A stretch of 39,647 bases of DNA from a virus: positions 1 to 39,647 of IMG/VR virus record IMGVR_UViG_3300044632_001147, one strand, 5' to 3'. The position numbers and the translations under genes were made by a program. Below the pieces are notes generated by a model. It ran no database searches, was not told the origin of the DNA, and was given only the letters and a program-made list of their open reading frames with translations. Shown piece after piece: positions 6,818 to 39,647 of the stretch. Every line of letters starts with the position of its first letter. Within the stretch, counting starts at the first letter, position 1.

Positions 6818-8590
6818 ATGTATACTTTAGTAAATCAAGTTTCGGTAAAACCTTTAAATTGCAATGTAGGTTATGTGAATTCTTGGTTAAGCGTGATGAA
6901 CAACGCTGAACGAGAATTTTGCGCACAAGCATCTTATATAACTAATTTTGATGATCTTTCTATATCTTTATCTGCTGCTGATCTTAATATAGGTTCAATA
7001 CACATACAAGATCCCGATAGTGGGTTGCAGGCAGATGTTGTTCCGGTTGGAAATGGTTTGGGCGCATTAAGAGTTATTAGTCAAGATTTAGAATCTACAG
7101 AAGACGATGTAACAATAGGAGATAGAAACGGAAATTTTGCATCGGTATATGCACCTTTAAGCGCACTTAGAGTTTATAATACAAATCCTGTATCTTCTGT
7201 AGATGTAACAAATATAGTATCAGTAAAATCATCTAATACATTTCCAATATCTGGATCTGTAACCGTTTTAAATCCAATAACATCGGTTAATGTTTTAAAT
7301 TTTCCAACACAATTAAGTTCTGTTAGTATTACTAATCAGTTAACCGGAATAACCATTTTAAATCCAGTTACTCAAGTTACTACATTACCACAACCAACTC
7401 AGCTGGATGCATTTGGCAGATTAAGAGTGTCTTCCCCGATGACTTTGTTTGATTCTTCACATCGTTATAGGGATAATAATTTATGGTCTACACTATCCGC
7501 AAATGGGGGTTCGGTTTCATTCAATCCATCACAGGGATTGATGGAATTAAATGTTACTAATACAGCAGGAGCAAGTGCAATAAGAGAAACAACAAAGGTA
7601 TTTTCCTATCAACCAGGTAAATCCTTGCTTGTCATGAATACATTTGTCATGGCTTCTTCTGCTACCAATTTAAGACAAAGGGTAGGATATTTTGGAGATC
7701 AGAATGGAGTATACTTTCAGCTAGATGATGGTAATATTAGTTTTGTTGAAAGATCCCTTGTCACGGGTTCCGTTACAGAGAGTGTAGTTTCACGATCTAA
7801 TTGGAACGGCGATAAGCTAAATGGAACTGGTTCTTCTGGTATAGTTTTAGATATAACCAAAGCTCAAATTCTTTGGTCGGATATTGAATGGTTGGGAGTA
7901 GGAACAGTAAGAGTTGGTTTTGTTATAAACGGGCAGTTTATTGTTTGCCACTCATTCCATCATGCTAATAATATAGATTCAACTTATATTACTACAGCTT
8001 CTTTACCTTTAAGATATGAAATTATTAATAAAGCAGCAACGGGTGGATCTAAAACACTAAAACAAATATGTTCTACTGTTATTTCCGAAGGTGGTTATGA
8101 ATTAAGAGGCTTGCAACAAGCAGTCTCTATTCCAATAACTTCACCAAGAACGTTTGCGGTAGCTGGTACGTTTTATCCAATTATTTCAATTCGATTAAAA
8201 GTAAGTCCAGATAGACTCGATGCAATTATTATTTTAACGGCTTTATCAATACTTGGACAAGGAAATGGCATAAACTATAACTGGCAGGTTAGAGCAAGTG
8301 GGGTCACAGCAGGAGGAAGTTGGGTTGATGCAGGGGTTGATAGTGCAGTTCAATACAATATTACAGGAACAAGCTATGCAGGAGGAAGAATTTTAGCAAG
8401 TGGGTTCTTAAATTCCTCTAATCAAGGTTCTCCAAATTTGGATATTCTTAAAGAAGCTTTGTTTAAGTTTCAATTAGAACGAAACAATTTAACAAAAACT
8501 CCTTTTGAATTAACTTTGGTTGCTGCAACAGATACCGTAAATGGATCTGGTATGTTTGCTTCTATGGATTGGGAAGAAGTTAGTAGATAA
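6818..8590 (+). CDS. Phage virion structural protein (590 aa)
   Basis: The protein has beta-rich repeats in the N-terminal third (SVDVTNIVSVKS, SVNVLNFPTQLSSVSI). At about residue 195 comes DAFGRLRVSSPMTLFDSSHR, followed by RETTKVFSYQPGKSLLVMNT, RQRVGYFGDQNGVYF, CHSFHHANNI and STVISEGGYELRG. This block is typical of structural proteins in marine myoviruses and jumbo phages, usually annotated as virion or tail-fibre-associated. There is no signal peptide. It is probably a late gene; the exact place in the particle is unknown. Confidence 0.85.
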   Translation: MYTLVNQVSVKPLNCNVGYVNSWLSVMNNAEREFCAQASYITNFDDLSISLSAADLNIGSIHIQDPDSGLQADVVPVGNGLGALRVISQDLESTEDDVTIGDRNGNFASVYAPLSALRVYNTNPVSSVDVTNIVSVKSSNTFPISGSVTVLNPITSVNVLNFPTQLSSVSITNQLTGITILNPVTQVTTLPQPTQLDAFGRLRVSSPMTLFDSSHRYRDNNLWSTLSANGGSVSFNPSQGLMELNVTNTAGASAIRETTKVFSYQPGKSLLVMNTFVMASSATNLRQRVGYFGDQNGVYFQLDDGNISFVERSLVTGSVTESVVSRSNWNGDKLNGTGSSGIVLDITKAQILWSDIEWLGVGTVRVGFVINGQFIVCHSFHHANNIDSTYITTASLPLRYEIINKAATGGSKTLKQICSTVISEGGYELRGLQQAVSIPITSPRTFAVAGTFYPIISIRLKVSPDRLDAIIILTALSILGQGNGINYNWQVRASGVTAGGSWVDAGVDSAVQYNITGTSYAGGRILASGFLNSSNQGSPNLDILKEALFKFQLERNNLTKTPFELTLVAATDTVNGSGMFASMDWEEVSR

Positions 8591-11472: not shown

Positions 11473-11949
11473 ATGTATTCCAACAAAAAAGATCAAAAAC
11501 AATTAGAAAATTTATATTCTAATTTAAATGAAAACAAAAAACAATTAAATGAAGGGATTTCGGGAGTTTATCCAGAAGAAGCAAACAATTTTGGTGCTAT
11601 GGTTTTTCATGTTTTACTTTTTACATTACCATTGGTTTTACATGCTGTGAAATTAAGTTTAGATAAAGGCAAATTAAAAACATTAAAAGATAAAATTGCT
11701 CAAGTCGTAGGTTCAGATAAATCTCCAAAAACTTTAAAAGATAAAATTGTAGAAGCTTCAAAAAATGTTATTTTTTCAGAATTTTCAACAAATTCAACAA
11801 TCAGTAAAAATTTAGCGTCGAAACTTGAAACGGCTTTAAATTTCTTTATACCTAAAAATTTAGAATCAAAAACCCCAGTAGATGTGGATAATGATATGAA
11901 AAGAAAAGAAATTGGACTTTCAAATCCTATGTTTCGTGGTAAATTGTAG
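11473..11949 (+). CDS. Leader-tagged membrane-associated protein (158 aa)
   Basis: The leader is a variant (MYSNKKDQKQLENLYSNLNE, then N), keeping KDQ, LEN, YS and a second site LNE at 18-20. A hydrophobic stretch follows at about residues 43-62 (MVFHVLLFTLPLVLHAVKLS). A repeated motif, LKTLKDKI / PKTLKDKI, occurs at about residues 69 and 86. If the leader is removed during head maturation, the product would be a membrane-active cargo protein (inference). Confidence 0.75.
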   Translation: MYSNKKDQKQLENLYSNLNENKKQLNEGISGVYPEEANNFGAMVFHVLLFTLPLVLHAVKLSLDKGKLKTLKDKIAQVVGSDKSPKTLKDKIVEASKNVIFSEFSTNSTISKNLASKLETALNFFIPKNLESKTPVDVDNDMKRKEIGLSNPMFRGKL

Positions 11950-12560: not shown

Positions 12561-12650
12561 GGAACGATGGCAGAGTGGTCTAATGCAGGAGTTTACTAAA
12601 CTTCAGAGGTGTAAAAGCCTCCGTGGGTTCGAATCCTACTCGTTCCGCCA
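12561..12650 (+). tRNA. tRNA-Ser with unusual ACT anticodon
   Basis: The acceptor stem is GGAACGA/TCGTTCC with G73 and an encoded CCA. The anticodon arm is GGAGT-TTACTAA-ACTTC, placing ACT at 34-36. A long class II variable arm (GAGG/CCTC) and a canonical T-loop TTCGAAT are present. Ser identity follows from the anticodon, long variable arm and G73. The usual bacterial anticodon for AGY serine codons is GCT. Confidence 0.88.
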
Positions 12651-22738: not shown

Positions 22739-22955
22739 AAGCAATTGGGGGTTTTGGATTTTTTCTAGATATTCTTTCATTTTAGAAAATGAAGAAGAAG
22801 GATTGAATGAAATTGTGATAGATAAAAAAACATGGAATAATTTTGAAATTGGAGATTTTTATGATTCTCATTACGGGCAATTTTTTAAATATGATCAACG
22901 AAATAAAAATAACAGACTTATCAGAAGCTGGATCTTACGCGAATGGAACAAATAA
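22722..22955 (+). CDS. Small hypothetical protein (77 aa)
   Basis: ATG at 22722 overlaps the previous stop and encodes MKIIHKSNWGFWIFSRYSFI, an acidic middle and a basic end. It overlaps the phosphatase gene by 65 nt, so either this product or the long overlap is unusual. No function assigned. Confidence 0.5.
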   Translation: MKIIHKSNWGFWIFSRYSFILENEEEGLNEIVIDKKTWNNFEIGDFYDSHYGQFFKYDQRNKNNRLIRSWILREWNK

Positions 22956-23433
22956 CAAATATGATATTTGGATATCCGCGACAGATGAAGAAGATATGCA
23001 TAAAATTAAAAGAATGAAAAAACTTCTTCATAATAAAGGAGTGACACATTATTATCAATTTTTTTATGATTGGTCAGATGAAGATGGAATAGAATGGGAT
23101 CATTTGGAAACTCTTGGACCTCAATTAAAACACGTCGAAAATATTATCAACTTTTTAAAACCATTTGTTGACGACGATAAAGTTCATAATTTAGGAGTTA
23201 ATTGTTTTGCGGGTGTTTCTAGATCAACAGCTATCGGAATAATTGCTTCGGTCATGACAGGTAAAACACCATACATGGCATTTGATTATATCAAAACAGT
23301 TAGACCTATGGCATGGCCAAATTTGAGAATTTTGAGATTTGCATCAGATATTTTAAAACAAGATTTGAAAACCACAATTGAAAATTGGAAAAGAACAAAA
23401 ATTGGAGGTATTTATACAGGAGGTTGGTCATAA
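22891..23433 (+). CDS. Cysteine (tyrosine/dual-specificity-like) phosphatase, copy 1 (180 aa)
   Basis: The P-loop is NCFAGVSRSTAIG, a C-x5-R-S/T active site in which Cys attacks phosphate and Arg binds it. YYQFFYDWSDEDGIEWDHL upstream probably holds the general acid (DWSDEDG). I chose the start MINEIKITDLSEAGSY because the paralogue at 28321 has the same N-terminus. Such enzymes dephosphorylate proteins or RNA caps; the target is unknown. It is the first of two copies 5.4 kb apart. Confidence 0.82.
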   Translation: MINEIKITDLSEAGSYANGTNNKYDIWISATDEEDMHKIKRMKKLLHNKGVTHYYQFFYDWSDEDGIEWDHLETLGPQLKHVENIINFLKPFVDDDKVHNLGVNCFAGVSRSTAIGIIASVMTGKTPYMAFDYIKTVRPMAWPNLRILRFASDILKQDLKTTIENWKRTKIGGIYTGGWS

Positions 23434-28074: not shown

Positions 28075-28324
28075 ATTTATAGAAACGACTGGGTGTACTG
28101 CATTTGATTTTACTGTAAACGAAAAGTCGTTTTCTGAATTATCAACTACAGAATATGATGAAATGTTAAATTATCTTTTTGAAAAGATTAAAGAAGGTAT
28201 TGGTGAACAAACAATTCTTTTAGAAGACGTTATTCATCTTTTTCAATATGATGATTATGAACATGATCCACATGTTTGTGAACAATGTGGAGATAGCGTA
28301 TCAACTACAACTTGGAATATATGA
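28058..28324 (+). CDS. Small protein with C-terminal CxxC (88 aa)
   Basis: MKTKYKFIETTGCTAFDFTV begins it and HDPHVCEQCGDSVSTTTW ends it; the CxxC with nearby histidine suggests a zinc-binding knuckle. It overlaps the second phosphatase gene by 4 nt. Confidence 0.65.
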   Translation: MKTKYKFIETTGCTAFDFTVNEKSFSELSTTEYDEMLNYLFEKIKEGIGEQTILLEDVIHLFQYDDYEHDPHVCEQCGDSVSTTTWNI

Positions 28325-28881
28325 TCAATACAATTAAAATTACCAATCTTGCAGAAGCAGAGAGTTATAGCTTCAATCCAAACAATACAGAGTACGACGT
28401 TTGGATTTCCGTTGTGGGACAAGAAGATAGAAAGCAAATTAACAGGATGCGTAAAAACCTTGCAGAAAAGAATGTAAAACATTTTCATCAGTTCTTTGCT
28501 GATTGGTCAGATGAGGACGGTATTCAATGGAAGCATCTAGAGGAAGATGCTCCACAAAAGAGACACGTTCAAAACATTATTACGTTTCTAAAACCATTTA
28601 CAGAAGATGACAAGCCACATAGTCTTGGAGTAAATTGTTATGCTGGTATTTCTAGATCGACTGCTGTTGGTATTATAGCCTTAGTGATGTCAGGAAGAAC
28701 AATAGAACAAGCACTGAAAGAAATATTGAAAGTCAGAAACATAGCTTGGCCTAATCTTCGTATTCTTGGCTTTGGTTCAGAAATTCTGGAAAAAGACATT
28801 AAGACCCATGTAGCCAACTGGAAAAAGTCCTCTTTAGAGGAAGGCATATGGATGCCCGACAGAATGCAACCAACAGAATAA
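28321..28881 (+). CDS. Cysteine (tyrosine/dual-specificity-like) phosphatase, copy 2 (186 aa)
   Basis: Paralogue of the gene at 22891. Shared features include INTIKITNLAEAESY, FHQFFADWSDEDGIQWKHL, the active site NCYAGISRSTAVG and AWPNLRILGFGSEIL. The active-site Cys and Arg are intact in both, so both should be active. Copy 2 has an extra C-terminal tail (EEGIWMPDRMQPTE). Duplication followed by divergence suggests two targets. It starts with ATG at 28321. Confidence 0.82.
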   Translation: MINTIKITNLAEAESYSFNPNNTEYDVWISVVGQEDRKQINRMRKNLAEKNVKHFHQFFADWSDEDGIQWKHLEEDAPQKRHVQNIITFLKPFTEDDKPHSLGVNCYAGISRSTAVGIIALVMSGRTIEQALKEILKVRNIAWPNLRILGFGSEILEKDIKTHVANWKKSSLEEGIWMPDRMQPTE

Positions 28882-29091: not shown

Positions 29092-29155
29092 TGAATGCTG
29101 AAACAATTAGACTATTCAAATTTACTGAAATGTGAAATAAATATGTAATAATTAT

Positions 29156-29374
29156 ATGATAAATGTTATTTTAAACAATACAAAGATTAAAGGCACCGCA
29201 AGAGTTGTTTTCAACAGAACCCTTATTAATTTCTGGGAATTTATAGCTCCCGCACCCAGTACCACTCTTTCTAATTTTAGAGTTGTTTACACCGGAGATC
29301 CAATTACTGTAGATTGGGGCGACGAACAAGAACAAACAATTCTATCAAATGTTAATTATAGTCACACTTATTGA
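29156..29374 (+). CDS. N-terminal piece of a structural protein, ended by in-frame TGA (72 aa)
   Basis: The product contains RVVYTGDPITVDWGDEQEQT and ends SNVNYSHTY; this is a PKD-like beta-sandwich motif (VDWGD...YSHTY) usual in phage and surface proteins. It stops at TGA (29372-29374). The same frame continues two codons later with the ATG of the LRR protein. The two may be parts of one gene split by a stop, read through it, or be separate coupled genes. Confidence 0.65.
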   Translation: MINVILNNTKIKGTARVVFNRTLINFWEFIAPAPSTTLSNFRVVYTGDPITVDWGDEQEQTILSNVNYSHTY

Positions 29375-29380
29375 TATATT

Positions 29381-30355
29381 ATGTATACTTTAAATTTAAA
29401 ACCTTCACCGAATCTCAATGTAACTCAAATTCATTGCGGCACAAGCTCCCCTAAACTTGGGGGCACGATAGATGTTTCGTCCTTCCCGAACCTCACCAGT
29501 ATCACTTGTGCTGGTAACGGGATTACAAAATTTCAAGGCTACGGATCGCTTACAAAGCTCGTTGATATAACTTTAAACAACAATGAATTTAACCAAGTTG
29601 GCTTTGAGACTCTTACCAATAAACCCAACCTTCGCACGCTGAATTTTGCGGGCAGCATAGCCAACCAATACATAAATTGGACAGGATCATTCCCAGACCT
29701 CTCGGCTATTACAACTCTAGCCGCAGTCCTTATCAACAACTCCTCATTAACGGGCAGCAATCTGAATCTCTCCGCGCTGACGAATCTTACGAGTTTAGCT
29801 ATCCAACACAACCTACTGTCCGGCGCGTTCCCTATTCTTCCCACTGGAGCAAACTCGAAGCTTATTACCATAAATGTAGGCCAAAACAAAACGACGCGCT
29901 TCACAGGGACTCCTCCACTCCTCACGGATCACCCTGCTTGCACTAGCCTTGCGTATTCCACCAACGATGTTACTGGCCCTATACAGGATTTAAGTGTGCG
30001 CCCGACGCTGACGAATTTCTGGTGCAACGTGTGTTTACACACTGGTAACATCCCGAATCTTTCTTCCAACACCGTCCTTGGCGCATTCCGCGCAAATGGT
30101 CAGAGAGGCACGACCAAACTCACAGGCTTCGCAGGCGGGACGGTATCCGCGACACTCGGAGATTTTTGGGCAAACGATAACCAACTCACCGCTTCTGCCG
30201 TGAACGCCATCCTCGCCGCATTCGTTGCCGCAGGCCGCTCGACAGGCACGCGCGTTCTTAACCTTGGTGGCACGGGAAATGCCGCCCCGACAGGACAAGG
30301 GATAACTGATAAAGCTACTCTTGTATCCAGAGGGTGGACAGTAACGACGAATTAA
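29381..30355 (+). CDS. Leucine-rich-repeat structural/adhesion protein (324 aa)
   Basis: Repeats of about 22-25 residues follow an LRR pattern (PNLTSITCAGNGITKFQG, LVDITLNNNEFNQVGF, LSALTNLTSLAIQHNLLSG). The C-terminus (LAAFVAAGRSTGTRVLNLGG, ITDKATLVSRGWTVTTN) resembles LRR proteins of phage tails and bacterial surface proteins. Its DNA is visibly GC-richer (near 50 % by eye) than all neighbours, suggesting recent acquisition. It is in the same frame as the preceding 72-aa gene. Likely a receptor-binding or decoration protein. Confidence 0.8.
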   Translation: MYTLNLKPSPNLNVTQIHCGTSSPKLGGTIDVSSFPNLTSITCAGNGITKFQGYGSLTKLVDITLNNNEFNQVGFETLTNKPNLRTLNFAGSIANQYINWTGSFPDLSAITTLAAVLINNSSLTGSNLNLSALTNLTSLAIQHNLLSGAFPILPTGANSKLITINVGQNKTTRFTGTPPLLTDHPACTSLAYSTNDVTGPIQDLSVRPTLTNFWCNVCLHTGNIPNLSSNTVLGAFRANGQRGTTKLTGFAGGTVSATLGDFWANDNQLTASAVNAILAAFVAAGRSTGTRVLNLGGTGNAAPTGQGITDKATLVSRGWTVTTN

Positions 30356-30361
30356 TATTTT

Positions 30362-30610
30362 ATGAAAAAAATATATACAAATCAAAATATTAACAATGAA
30401 GAAGTAGTACCTTTTACTTCTGAGGTGCAAACCACAGACCAAGATTGGTGGATGATTTATGATGCGGTTACAATGGATTTATTAATTAAACCTCAACAAT
30501 GCTCAGGTTTCACATCAAGCCCTTTTACTATGGTGATATCGGATAATAAAGAAGAACTTGAGCAATATATTATTGACAATCAAATAAATGACAGTATTAA
30601 TGAAAATTAA
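30362..30610 (+). CDS. Small conserved phage protein (82 aa)
   Basis: The central WWMIYDAVTMDLLIKPQQCS, then SPFTMVISDNKEELEQYI, is a pattern found in small phage proteins next to tail genes. Unknown function. It returns to the AT-rich composition of the genome immediately after the GC-rich LRR gene. Confidence 0.7.
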   Translation: MKKIYTNQNINNEEVVPFTSEVQTTDQDWWMIYDAVTMDLLIKPQQCSGFTSSPFTMVISDNKEELEQYIIDNQINDSINEN

Positions 30611-36951: not shown

Positions 36952-37752
36952 TTACAAACTGCTAATCCACTTAAAAGACTCATTAATATTTTCAGAGAAG
37001 TCTTTTCCTAGAATCTTCGACCAATCGTTTTCCAAAGGCTTCACTTGGTTTCTAATCTCATGATCACCATAAGGCCAGCCTAATTCGTGCTCTACTGTGT
37101 ATTGCTCCACATTGTCGAAGTTATGCTCAAAAGGTTCTTCTTCAAGATACTCCCAAACTTTATTCATAGTTTGTTTAGGATTCTTTGTGAGTTCTTCAAA
37201 GTGAACAAAATGAAGTTTGTTTTGATATCTTTTTACAGCATCTGAAAGCCTTTCGACAGCAATTCCAAGTGGAGGAATGTTCAACCAACCCTGTGCTCTT
37301 TTTTCCACAGTTGTCCAGTTTTGAGGATTTTGTTTTTCAACTCCTGTGAATGGAAAGGGATGCTTGCGCCATTTCTTTTCAAAGGAAGAAAGGATACCAC
37401 GCATGTCCCTCACAGGAACCAGAACCTTTGCATTAGGCCAGATTGCAAATAGCATATCTAAATGACCAACCCACGAACGGCACTTGTCAACTACTACAGG
37501 ACGATCTGTCAATCTATTAAAAGCATTTTCACATCCTCCTTTGACATAATCATAGAACAATGTTTCCCCATCTTGGGGATTGGGGATAGTTTTAAACTCT
37601 TCTGTAGCAGAAAATTGCCGAGCAAGATAACCAATTTCGTGAAGACCACTAGTGGCTGTAGAATGAACTCTAGGATTCTGGGCTAGAACGTTCATCAAAA
37701 GAGTGGAACCTGCACGAGGAAGACCTGAAACGAAGTGAATAGTTTTTGACAT
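36952..37752 (-). CDS. Sulfotransferase (266 aa)
   Basis: The N-terminal P-loop-like PAPS motif is FVSGLPRAGSTLLMNVLAQN (5'-PSB), and the 3'-phosphate-binding region is VPVRDMRGILSSFEKKW. These mark a PAPS-dependent sulfotransferase of the type often found in marine phages and bacteria. The acceptor is not visible; surface glycans or a small metabolite are options. It is leftward and lies downstream of the surface-protein gene, though separated from it by a terminator. Confidence 0.85.
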   Translation of the reverse strand: MSKTIHFVSGLPRAGSTLLMNVLAQNPRVHSTATSGLHEIGYLARQFSATEEFKTIPNPQDGETLFYDYVKGGCENAFNRLTDRPVVVDKCRSWVGHLDMLFAIWPNAKVLVPVRDMRGILSSFEKKWRKHPFPFTGVEKQNPQNWTTVEKRAQGWLNIPPLGIAVERLSDAVKRYQNKLHFVHFEELTKNPKQTMNKVWEYLEEEPFEHNFDNVEQYTVEHELGWPYGDHEIRNQVKPLENDWSKILGKDFSENINESFKWISSL

Positions 37753-38055: not shown

Positions 38056-39647
38056 TTATAGATCTTTTATAACTGTTACGTTAGTATTTCCTTGGAATGA
38101 CCATCCAGTTTGTGCTGTCCAAGTATTATCAGAAGCTCTAGCATGAATGGTGAGAGGGCTTGCTGTATATTGGAACGCATTATAACTAACAAAGGCTGAT
38201 CGGGCTACATAACAATTAACAGTGGCAAGATTTGAGTTACTAAAGAATGCATAGTATCCAATACTAGTCACAGAATTTGGAATAGTAACTGATGTGAGTG
38301 AGTTACCACGGAATGCACTGTCTCCAATACTAGTCACAGAATTTGGAATAGTAACTGATGTGAGTGAGTTATCACGGAATGCACTGTTTCCAATACTAGT
38401 CACAGAATTTGGTATAGTATAAACACTTCCAGCAGCTTCTCCACGATATATTAACGTCGTTTGGTCCTTGTTAAAGAGCACTCCGCTTAAACTACTGAAA
38501 TTTGGATTGTCTGTATCTACAGTAATTGTTGTCAAACCGTTCCCACTGAATGCATAGTTTCCAATACTAGTCACAGAATCTGGAATAGTAACTGAAGTGA
38601 GTTGGTTAGCACCGAATGCACCGCCTCCAATACTAGTCACAGAATTTCCTATAGTAACTGATTGGAGTTGGTTATTTCGGAATGCACTGTCTTCAATACT
38701 AGTCACAGAATTTGGAATAGTAACTGATGTGAGTTGGTTATTATAGAATGCAAAGTTTCCAATATTAGTCACAGAATCTGGAATAGTAACTGATGTGAGT
38801 TGATTATAAGAGAATGCATTGTCTCGAATACTAGTCACAGAATCTGGAATAGTAACTGATGTGAGTTGATTATAAGAGAATGCATTTTCTCCAATACTAG
38901 TCACAGAAGTTCCAATGTCTACATAACCTGCTATGTTTTGCTGATTTTTCCAACTATTTGGAACATTTCCATTTAAAGGATTTCCTGCAGTATTAAAAAC
39001 AGTTCCATTGGGATTATAGATAGTGGTTTTGAGAGGACTAACAAAACCAACAGAAGTATCGTTAATAGTAACACTTGCTGTTTGGCTAGCAGATGTCATT
39101 GTTAATGTCTCTACACCTTCTGTAGTAGAGTCTGCTGTGATGTTTAATGTGACGCTTCCTGTATTAGAGTTGATAGTAAAATTACCTGTTAAAGAAACTC
39201 CACCTATGTCTTCAGTAGAAATGCCAGTAATGGTATAAGGAACAGTAGTTCCATTAGCCACATTGGTTGTGGTCATAGTAAAGGTAACAGAACCTCCTTC
39301 ATCAACAGAAGCAACAGAGCTAGTTAATGCATAAGTTGGAGTAGGTAACACGAAAGATGTGTCATTAATTATGAGAGAACCTGAAGTTAAAGCGGCTGTA
39401 AGCGATGGGGTTATACTGCTTATAGAAACAATCATTGTTTCTGCTCCCTCTAGTAATAAGTCCGAGTTTGGATAGAATTCTATAATAGTCGTATTTCTAT
39501 ATGGATATCCTTCAGACCCTGGAATTCCTGGAGTCCAAAATCCAGTTTGTCCAACAAGAACTCTTCCAGTTAAAGGTGGTATTCCAGAATTTATAAAAAT
39601 GTCATTTTCTGATATTCCGGTGATTTCGTAATAAATTTCAGAAAATG
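38056..39647 (-). CDS. Calx-beta and BspA-type LRR surface protein, 5' end beyond the window
   Basis: Leftward, and the frame stays open to the right edge, so the N-terminus is missing; the first internal Met is at 39435. The visible N-terminal part has Calx-beta features (ASVDEGGSVTFTMTTTNVAN, DSTTEGVETLTMTSASQ, and EGAETMIVSIS further upstream). The C-terminal 280 residues hold about ten BspA-type LRR_5 repeats of 23 residues (NQLTSVTIPDSVTSIGDSAF type). Calx-beta domains bind calcium and BspA LRRs mediate adhesion. In a phage this suggests a receptor-binding or tail-decoration protein. Confidence 0.85.
   Translation of the reverse strand, partial: FSEIYYEITGISENDIFINSGIPPLTGRVLVGQTGFWTPGIPGSEGYPYRNTTIIEFYPNSDLLLEGAETMIVSISSITPSLTAALTSGSLIINDTSFVLPTPTYALTSSVASVDEGGSVTFTMTTTNVANGTTVPYTITGISTEDIGGVSLTGNFTINSNTGSVTLNITADSTTEGVETLTMTSASQTASVTINDTSVGFVSPLKTTIYNPNGTVFNTAGNPLNGNVPNSWKNQQNIAGYVDIGTSVTSIGENAFSYNQLTSVTIPDSVTSIRDNAFSYNQLTSVTIPDSVTNIGNFAFYNNQLTSVTIPNSVTSIEDSAFRNNQLQSVTIGNSVTSIGGGAFGANQLTSVTIPDSVTSIGNYAFSGNGLTTITVDTDNPNFSSLSGVLFNKDQTTLIYRGEAAGSVYTIPNSVTSIGNSAFRDNSLTSVTIPNSVTSIGDSAFRGNSLTSVTIPNSVTSIGYYAFFSNSNLATVNCYVARSAFVSYNAFQYTASPLTIHARASDNTWTAQTGWSFQGNTNVTVIKDL
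38236..38915 (-). repeat. Tandem 69-nt DNA repeats coding BspA-type LRR units
   Basis: Units of about 69 nt recur with CCAATACTAGTCACAGAAT and GGAATAGTAACTGATGTGAG as near-constant blocks, and one divergent stretch (about 38410-38550) interrupts the array. The identity between units makes unequal recombination and variation in repeat number likely. Confidence 0.8.

Follow-up and report, generated by a model that had tools for sequence, protein, structure and literature searches.

Does a stop codon lying in frame between two apparent protein domains mark a broken gene, a recoding site or simply the end of one gene? The question is raised by a 39,647-base virus record (IMGVR_UViG_3300044632_001147; G+C 31.7%), analysed whole and called the window below, whose virion protein at 6818-8590 has its nearest relatives in T4-like cyanophages (best match S-RIM4, which we take to be T4-like, with 69.6% identity over 67% of the query). 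A 72-aa ORF ends here in ...NYSHTY at a TGA (29372-29374), and the same frame runs on through two codons, TAT ATT, to the ATG (29381) of a leucine-rich-repeat (LRR) ORF. Our ORF check reproduced exactly the coordinates, sequence and frame given for this junction in the initial annotation, which had proposed either a gene split by a stop-codon mutation or TGA read-through. We favour another reading: the region 29156-30610 is probably a modular three-part late phage adhesin cassette (Table 1), in which the sandwich and the LRR protein are separate genes and the LRR body has been exchanged.

Table 1. Positions of the cassette's predicted parts in the window
Feature	Position	Strand	Remark
Late-promoter-like NATAAATA (AATAAATA)	29136..29143	+	12 nt 5' of the 72-aa ORF; motif known from PMC2984593
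72-aa beta-sandwich ORF, adapter-like	29156..29374	+	TGA most likely an ordinary stop
TGA stop	29372..29374	+	Conserved break position after the HTY/KTF motif
324-aa LRR ORF, putative adhesin	29381..30355	+	
AT-rich 5' strip of the LRR ORF, apparently the recipient's own	29381..29433	+	Encodes the strand ahead of the first repeat
Transferred LRR body	29434..30356	+	G+C 0.504
5' breakpoint of the LRR body	within about 29420-29434		CGTSSPKLGG anchor
3' breakpoint of the LRR body	about 30356-30364		
82-aa partner gene, AT-rich, directly 3' of the LRR ORF	30362..30610	+	Apparently not co-transferred

In a second IMG sample, the contig IMGVR_UViG_3300049629_000373 aligns with the window over 5825 nt, differing at two positions (30174 and 30180), and carries an identical 72-aa ORF with the same TGA, which makes a sequencing error at this position unlikely. 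It was also the only contig returned by a DNA pattern scan for other stop-codon alleles and by a scan for close relatives with the 72-aa protein. TGA terminates 26 of the 71 plus-strand ORFs tallied in the window, ruling out an alternative genetic code, and no suppressor tRNA occurs among the 6 tRNAs found in this fragment. On its own, same-frame adjacency of two ORFs is a 1-in-3 event.

Scanning for the LRR N-cap gave 49 viral loci, in which the sandwich was then assigned by profile. It is a separate upstream ORF in 17 (including L126, the window's own virus), fused to the LRR ORF in 12 (11 by profile and L130 by eye) and absent directly upstream in 20; other scans added the separate case L081 and the fused cases L007, L012 and L087. 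Sandwich and LRR are an ordinary gene pair, common to many related viruses. The expectation that a structural protein would contain both parts is borne out in some relatives, and the homologue search yields mixed states, not the always separate genes that the initial annotation had named as telling against its reading.

All 17 separate loci break at one place: the sandwich ORF ends 0-3 residues past a shared motif (HTY, KTF, KTY, or variants such as PININ/PINIT), and its stop lies 1-17 nt from the LRR ATG. The frame relation from sandwich to LRR, however, is 0 in six loci, +1 in six and +2 in five, or 5/5/4 for the 14 loci that remain when three pairs with identical printed junctions are merged (L100/L101, L128/L129 and L131/L132). 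In one close group, whose sandwich ORFs share 81-100% identity with the L068 one, the frame is 0 in L068, L076 and L077 and +2 in L072 and L079, the cause being a 2-nt difference in the spacer. No Met stands between motif and strand in any of the 11 fused rows of the alignment, nor in L021, a more distant joined row. Since the break falls at one place in any frame, the position of the TGA is a gene boundary, and the codon most likely terminates, in the normal way, a gene that is conserved as a separate unit. The boundary is thus fixed at one residue while frame and fusion state vary, and finding two domains parted by an in-frame stop does not by itself show a gene to be broken. On a tree of the C-terminal tail and the 82-aa protein (34 rows and 155 columns, with good support for 10 of 31 inner branches), the 'separate' label is not clustered (8 changes against a shuffled mean of 8.8) and the 'fused' label is (7 against 11.1); the tree gives no order of age between the two states.

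Had a recent nonsense mutation divided a fused sandwich-LRR gene and left its LRR part truncated or decaying, the homologues should otherwise be joined, as they are in the 12 fused loci; the break recurs instead across 17 of the 49 and in all three frames. It is true that the window's stop is a TGA in frame with the LRR ORF, where the other 16 separate loci use TAA, and that the 72-aa protein is as close to the fused relative L004 as to the separate L068 and L079 (local score 112 for each). Yet the ATG sits exactly where LRR-only relatives start, the stop is the same in the second sample, and the LRR ORF is intact and, from sequence comparison, looks to be under constraint (dN/dS 0.25 against L010, 0.20 against L003 and 0.19 against L002, much of the compared history being older than the transfer described below). 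We consider such a mutation an unlikely origin of the junction, and the proposed split is not supported. Programmed read-through of the TGA, yielding a minor fused protein, is a much poorer candidate still and in our view very improbable: with the 6/6/5 distribution of frames it would be workable in only a third of the relatives, so that neither read-through nor frameshifting can be the general mechanism, and it has to contend with TGA as a working stop elsewhere in the window and with the missing suppressor tRNA, even though the frame is shared, has no further stop and gives a fused form that folds confidently as a single chain.

If the TGA is an ordinary gene end, what is foreign about the LRR gene? 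G+C is 0.342 in the 72-aa ORF, 0.237 over 29375-29433, 0.504 in the LRR body (29434-30356) and 0.286 in the following gene; no other 923-nt stretch of the contig exceeds 0.415. The edges are sharp, as the initial annotation had remarked in proposing a transfer from a contrast of about 50 to 30% G+C, and the proposal is borne out both by these values and by alignment to G+C-richer loci: DNA identity of the LRR ORF is 88% to L010, 85% to L002 and 84% to L003 (G+C 56%, 53% and 49%, respectively), the alignment being limited to the stretch from 29420-29434 to 30356-30364. An equal G+C in the source phages had been listed as an objection, an ambiguous wording; the likely sources do match the segment, and this speaks for transfer. 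The 5' edge does not coincide with the TGA but falls 50-60 nt into the LRR ORF, at a seam formed by a conserved CGTSSPKLGG anchor. The 82-aa protein shares 68% identity with that of L049 and 65% with that of L005, and only 35-43% with those of L002, L003 and L010. Because the 5' edge is internal to the LRR ORF and the 82-aa gene is unlike those of the donors, the exchange took in the LRR body and nothing else, and it was not what created the split.

As far as sequence can tell, then, only the LRR body is replaced, from the CGTSSPKLGG anchor to the stop codon, and the 5' strip and the 82-aa gene are kept. The replacement was recent, by homologous exchange between conserved anchors with a G+C-richer relative as source, and it spared the 82-aa gene, the sandwich and the residues with which the LRR ORF begins; the donors are likely to be near L002, L003 and L010. 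The swap probably altered which targets the virus can adhere to. Other contigs, too, have LRR genes whose G+C is discordant: L020 (0.63 against 0.42) and L006, L008 and L012 (0.35-0.37 against 0.42-0.47). An LRR-based, probably receptor-binding module is exchanged at defined seams between phages of very different base composition, and the cassette offers a natural test bed for the way phages swap host-binding parts.

For the window's LRR protein, Pfam LRR_4 reaches 26.6 bits, just under its cut-off of 27, and relatives (L004, L006, L010, L017 and others) exceed the Pfam LRR gathering score. An AlphaFold2 model of the read-through product (mean pLDDT 91) places five strands before the stop and one after it (residues 78-82), followed by an LRR solenoid, for which LRR chains fill the lists of structural matches (Foldseek E down to 2.9e-06, VIA Z up to 26.6). 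The best match, 8web_A (Z 26.6, 313 residues, rmsd 3.2), covers about residues 78-399 of the model. This part has the fold of plant receptor ectodomain, Leptospira LRR and internalin solenoids; its sequence, by contrast, shares about 20% identity with theirs. Against solved structures, a profile of the sandwich-LRR region found matches through its LRR part and otherwise weak scattered hits, and no Pfam family was matched by the 72-aa ORF at E up to 0.1; the W-G-D ... H-T-Y pattern of this ORF is reminiscent of a PKD or Ig-like domain. No match to the LRR protein was found among 50,697 phage records, the N-cap alignment confirmed no relative in bacterial and archaeal genomes, and literature searches on phage LRR proteins listed no report directly on such a gene pair. 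The window encodes a second LRR protein, of BspA type and with a different repeat type from that of the 324-aa protein, at 38056-39435 (-) (Pfam LRR_5, E 2e-59).

The third part of the cassette is the 82-aa partner gene. A scan for the 82-aa gene found 44 loci, and in all 43 that were read (the remaining one, L013, was observed separately) it lies directly behind an LRR-type gene with the conserved C-terminal tail; in an overlapping set, a small gene is directly downstream in 25 of 25 hit rows. In the reverse direction, an 82-aa-type gene was seen in 16 of the 37 loci of the first LRR scan, the rest being cut off or more distant. The protein has no Pfam or PHROG match, was not found in phage isolate records or in bacterial or archaeal genome contigs, and its model (pLDDT 82.8) gave no convincing fold match: the Mu fibre-chaperone complex 5yvq_B scores Z 2.4 (rmsd 3.9 over 65 aligned residues), level with unrelated chains. 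The cassette shares with tail fibre-chaperone pairs a small gene directly downstream of the binder, and differs from them in that this small protein lacks a convincing chaperone match. The 82-aa protein would help to fold or place the LRR binder.

What would such a cassette do? Because the genes flanking it in the window are not tail genes (a phosphatase-like ORF and small ORFs without assignment), a tail function rests on the relatives. In L079, L076, L064, L085 and L072, tail-type signatures (BppL_N, Phage_tail_C, PHROG tail fibre) lie upstream, the match in L085 being below the cut-off, and these signatures make a receptor-binding role our best guess from sequence, although the window's own neighbours speak against it. 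From all this we infer a division of labour in which the sandwich protein would dock the LRR binder to tail or baseplate and the LRR surface would bind the host. Alternatively, the pair might be no adhesin but a two-gene unit with an intracellular or accessory task, for which the two folds are used. The window's neighbours would suit such a unit, and family searches assign no function; the sandwich, on the other hand, not only follows genes with tail matches in the relatives but also ends long proteins of structural type, forming the C-terminus of a long FG-GAP protein in L061 and, with the same end motif, that of the 615-aa L081 protein (140-1987), which carries an FGE-sulfatase domain (E 1.2e-29). 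We find the non-adhesin alternative rather unlikely.

A two-gene receptor-binding device would have precedents. In the T5-like phages DT57C and DT571/2, the lateral tail fibres are described as products of two genes, LtfA and LtfB, the second attached through the first, and natural and selected deletions fused both ORFs (PMC4728585). The cassette resembles them in being a two-gene arrangement, fused in some relatives, and differs in consisting of a small sandwich and an LRR solenoid instead of long fibres; the likeness meant here is one of arrangement. Distant Alteromonas phages are reported to share host-recognition modules of tail fibre and chaperone (PMC10579305), and Pam3 gp24/gp25 combine a receptor-binding gene with a partner gene (PMC9608196). 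Like both, the cassette pairs a binder gene with a partner and has moved as a module between unrelated phages; unlike both as described there, the LRR body moved here without its partner.

Might the break lie inside a domain, and on purpose? If so, the N-terminal strand of the LRR ORF (MYTLNL..., MAGISLIL... or MPTxSINI...) would supply in trans the last strand missing from the sandwich, in the manner of donor-strand complementation. The break does always fall after the same strand; in L069 and its kin, however, near-identical LRR ORFs come after an unrelated domain that looks complete, and we hold the idea to be doubtful. If true, the trans strand would act as a plug, both genetic and physical, for clicking any LRR module onto any tail protein that bears the sandwich. 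In the tree, L068 and L069 stand next to each other. The small proteins ahead of their near-identical LRR ORFs (L068:3778-4032 and L069:3464-4033) share an N-terminal anchor (SAKQ.YYNN.LIW) and have different C-terminal domains, which suggests that the adapter is modular too.

Expression of the separate genes would be late. Cyanophage late promoters have been reported as NATAAATA (PMC2984593). Of 26 LRR starts in separate or LRR-only loci, 11 have this motif no more than 50 nt upstream, against 0 of 13 fused starts; a background of 0.315 per kb over all loci analysed predicts about 0.4 of 26, and some matches fall inside codons of an I-N-K motif whose coding constraint raises the count. In the window, the motif precedes the 72-aa ORF (29136-29143) and is absent before the LRR ORF. 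The LRR ORF would be translated from its own ATG at 29381, most likely by re-initiation or coupling on the one late transcript of the 72-aa gene. A Shine-Dalgarno sequence at the LRR start is uninformative either way, since listed starts are no richer in 4-nt matches than random ATGs (17 of 56 against 33%). Over the whole window, NATAAATA occurs 17 times on the plus strand and 6 times on the minus strand; 7 of the plus-strand copies are followed within 45 nt by a listed ORF start.

Several other features of the window deserve mention. Nine otherwise different plus-strand ORFs, starting at 492, 1615, 1967, 2389, 3859, 5053, 16288, 16710 and 17943, share the N-terminal tag M(K/R)xKDQxxLE..Y or a near form of it, and those at 11473 and 12766 carry weak-looking versions; we presume that the tag could mark its proteins for the head or for processing, as in the internal proteins of T4. 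Two paralogous dual-specificity-phosphatase-like ORFs (22843-23433 and 28312-28881, both +; weak Pfam DSPc matches) are 71.6% identical in DNA over 190 nt, the second sitting just before the cassette. ARAGORN places a tRNA-Ser with the unusual anticodon act at 12561-12650 (+), and a sulfotransferase-like protein is encoded at 36952-37752 (-) (Pfam Sulfotransfer_3, E 1e-18).
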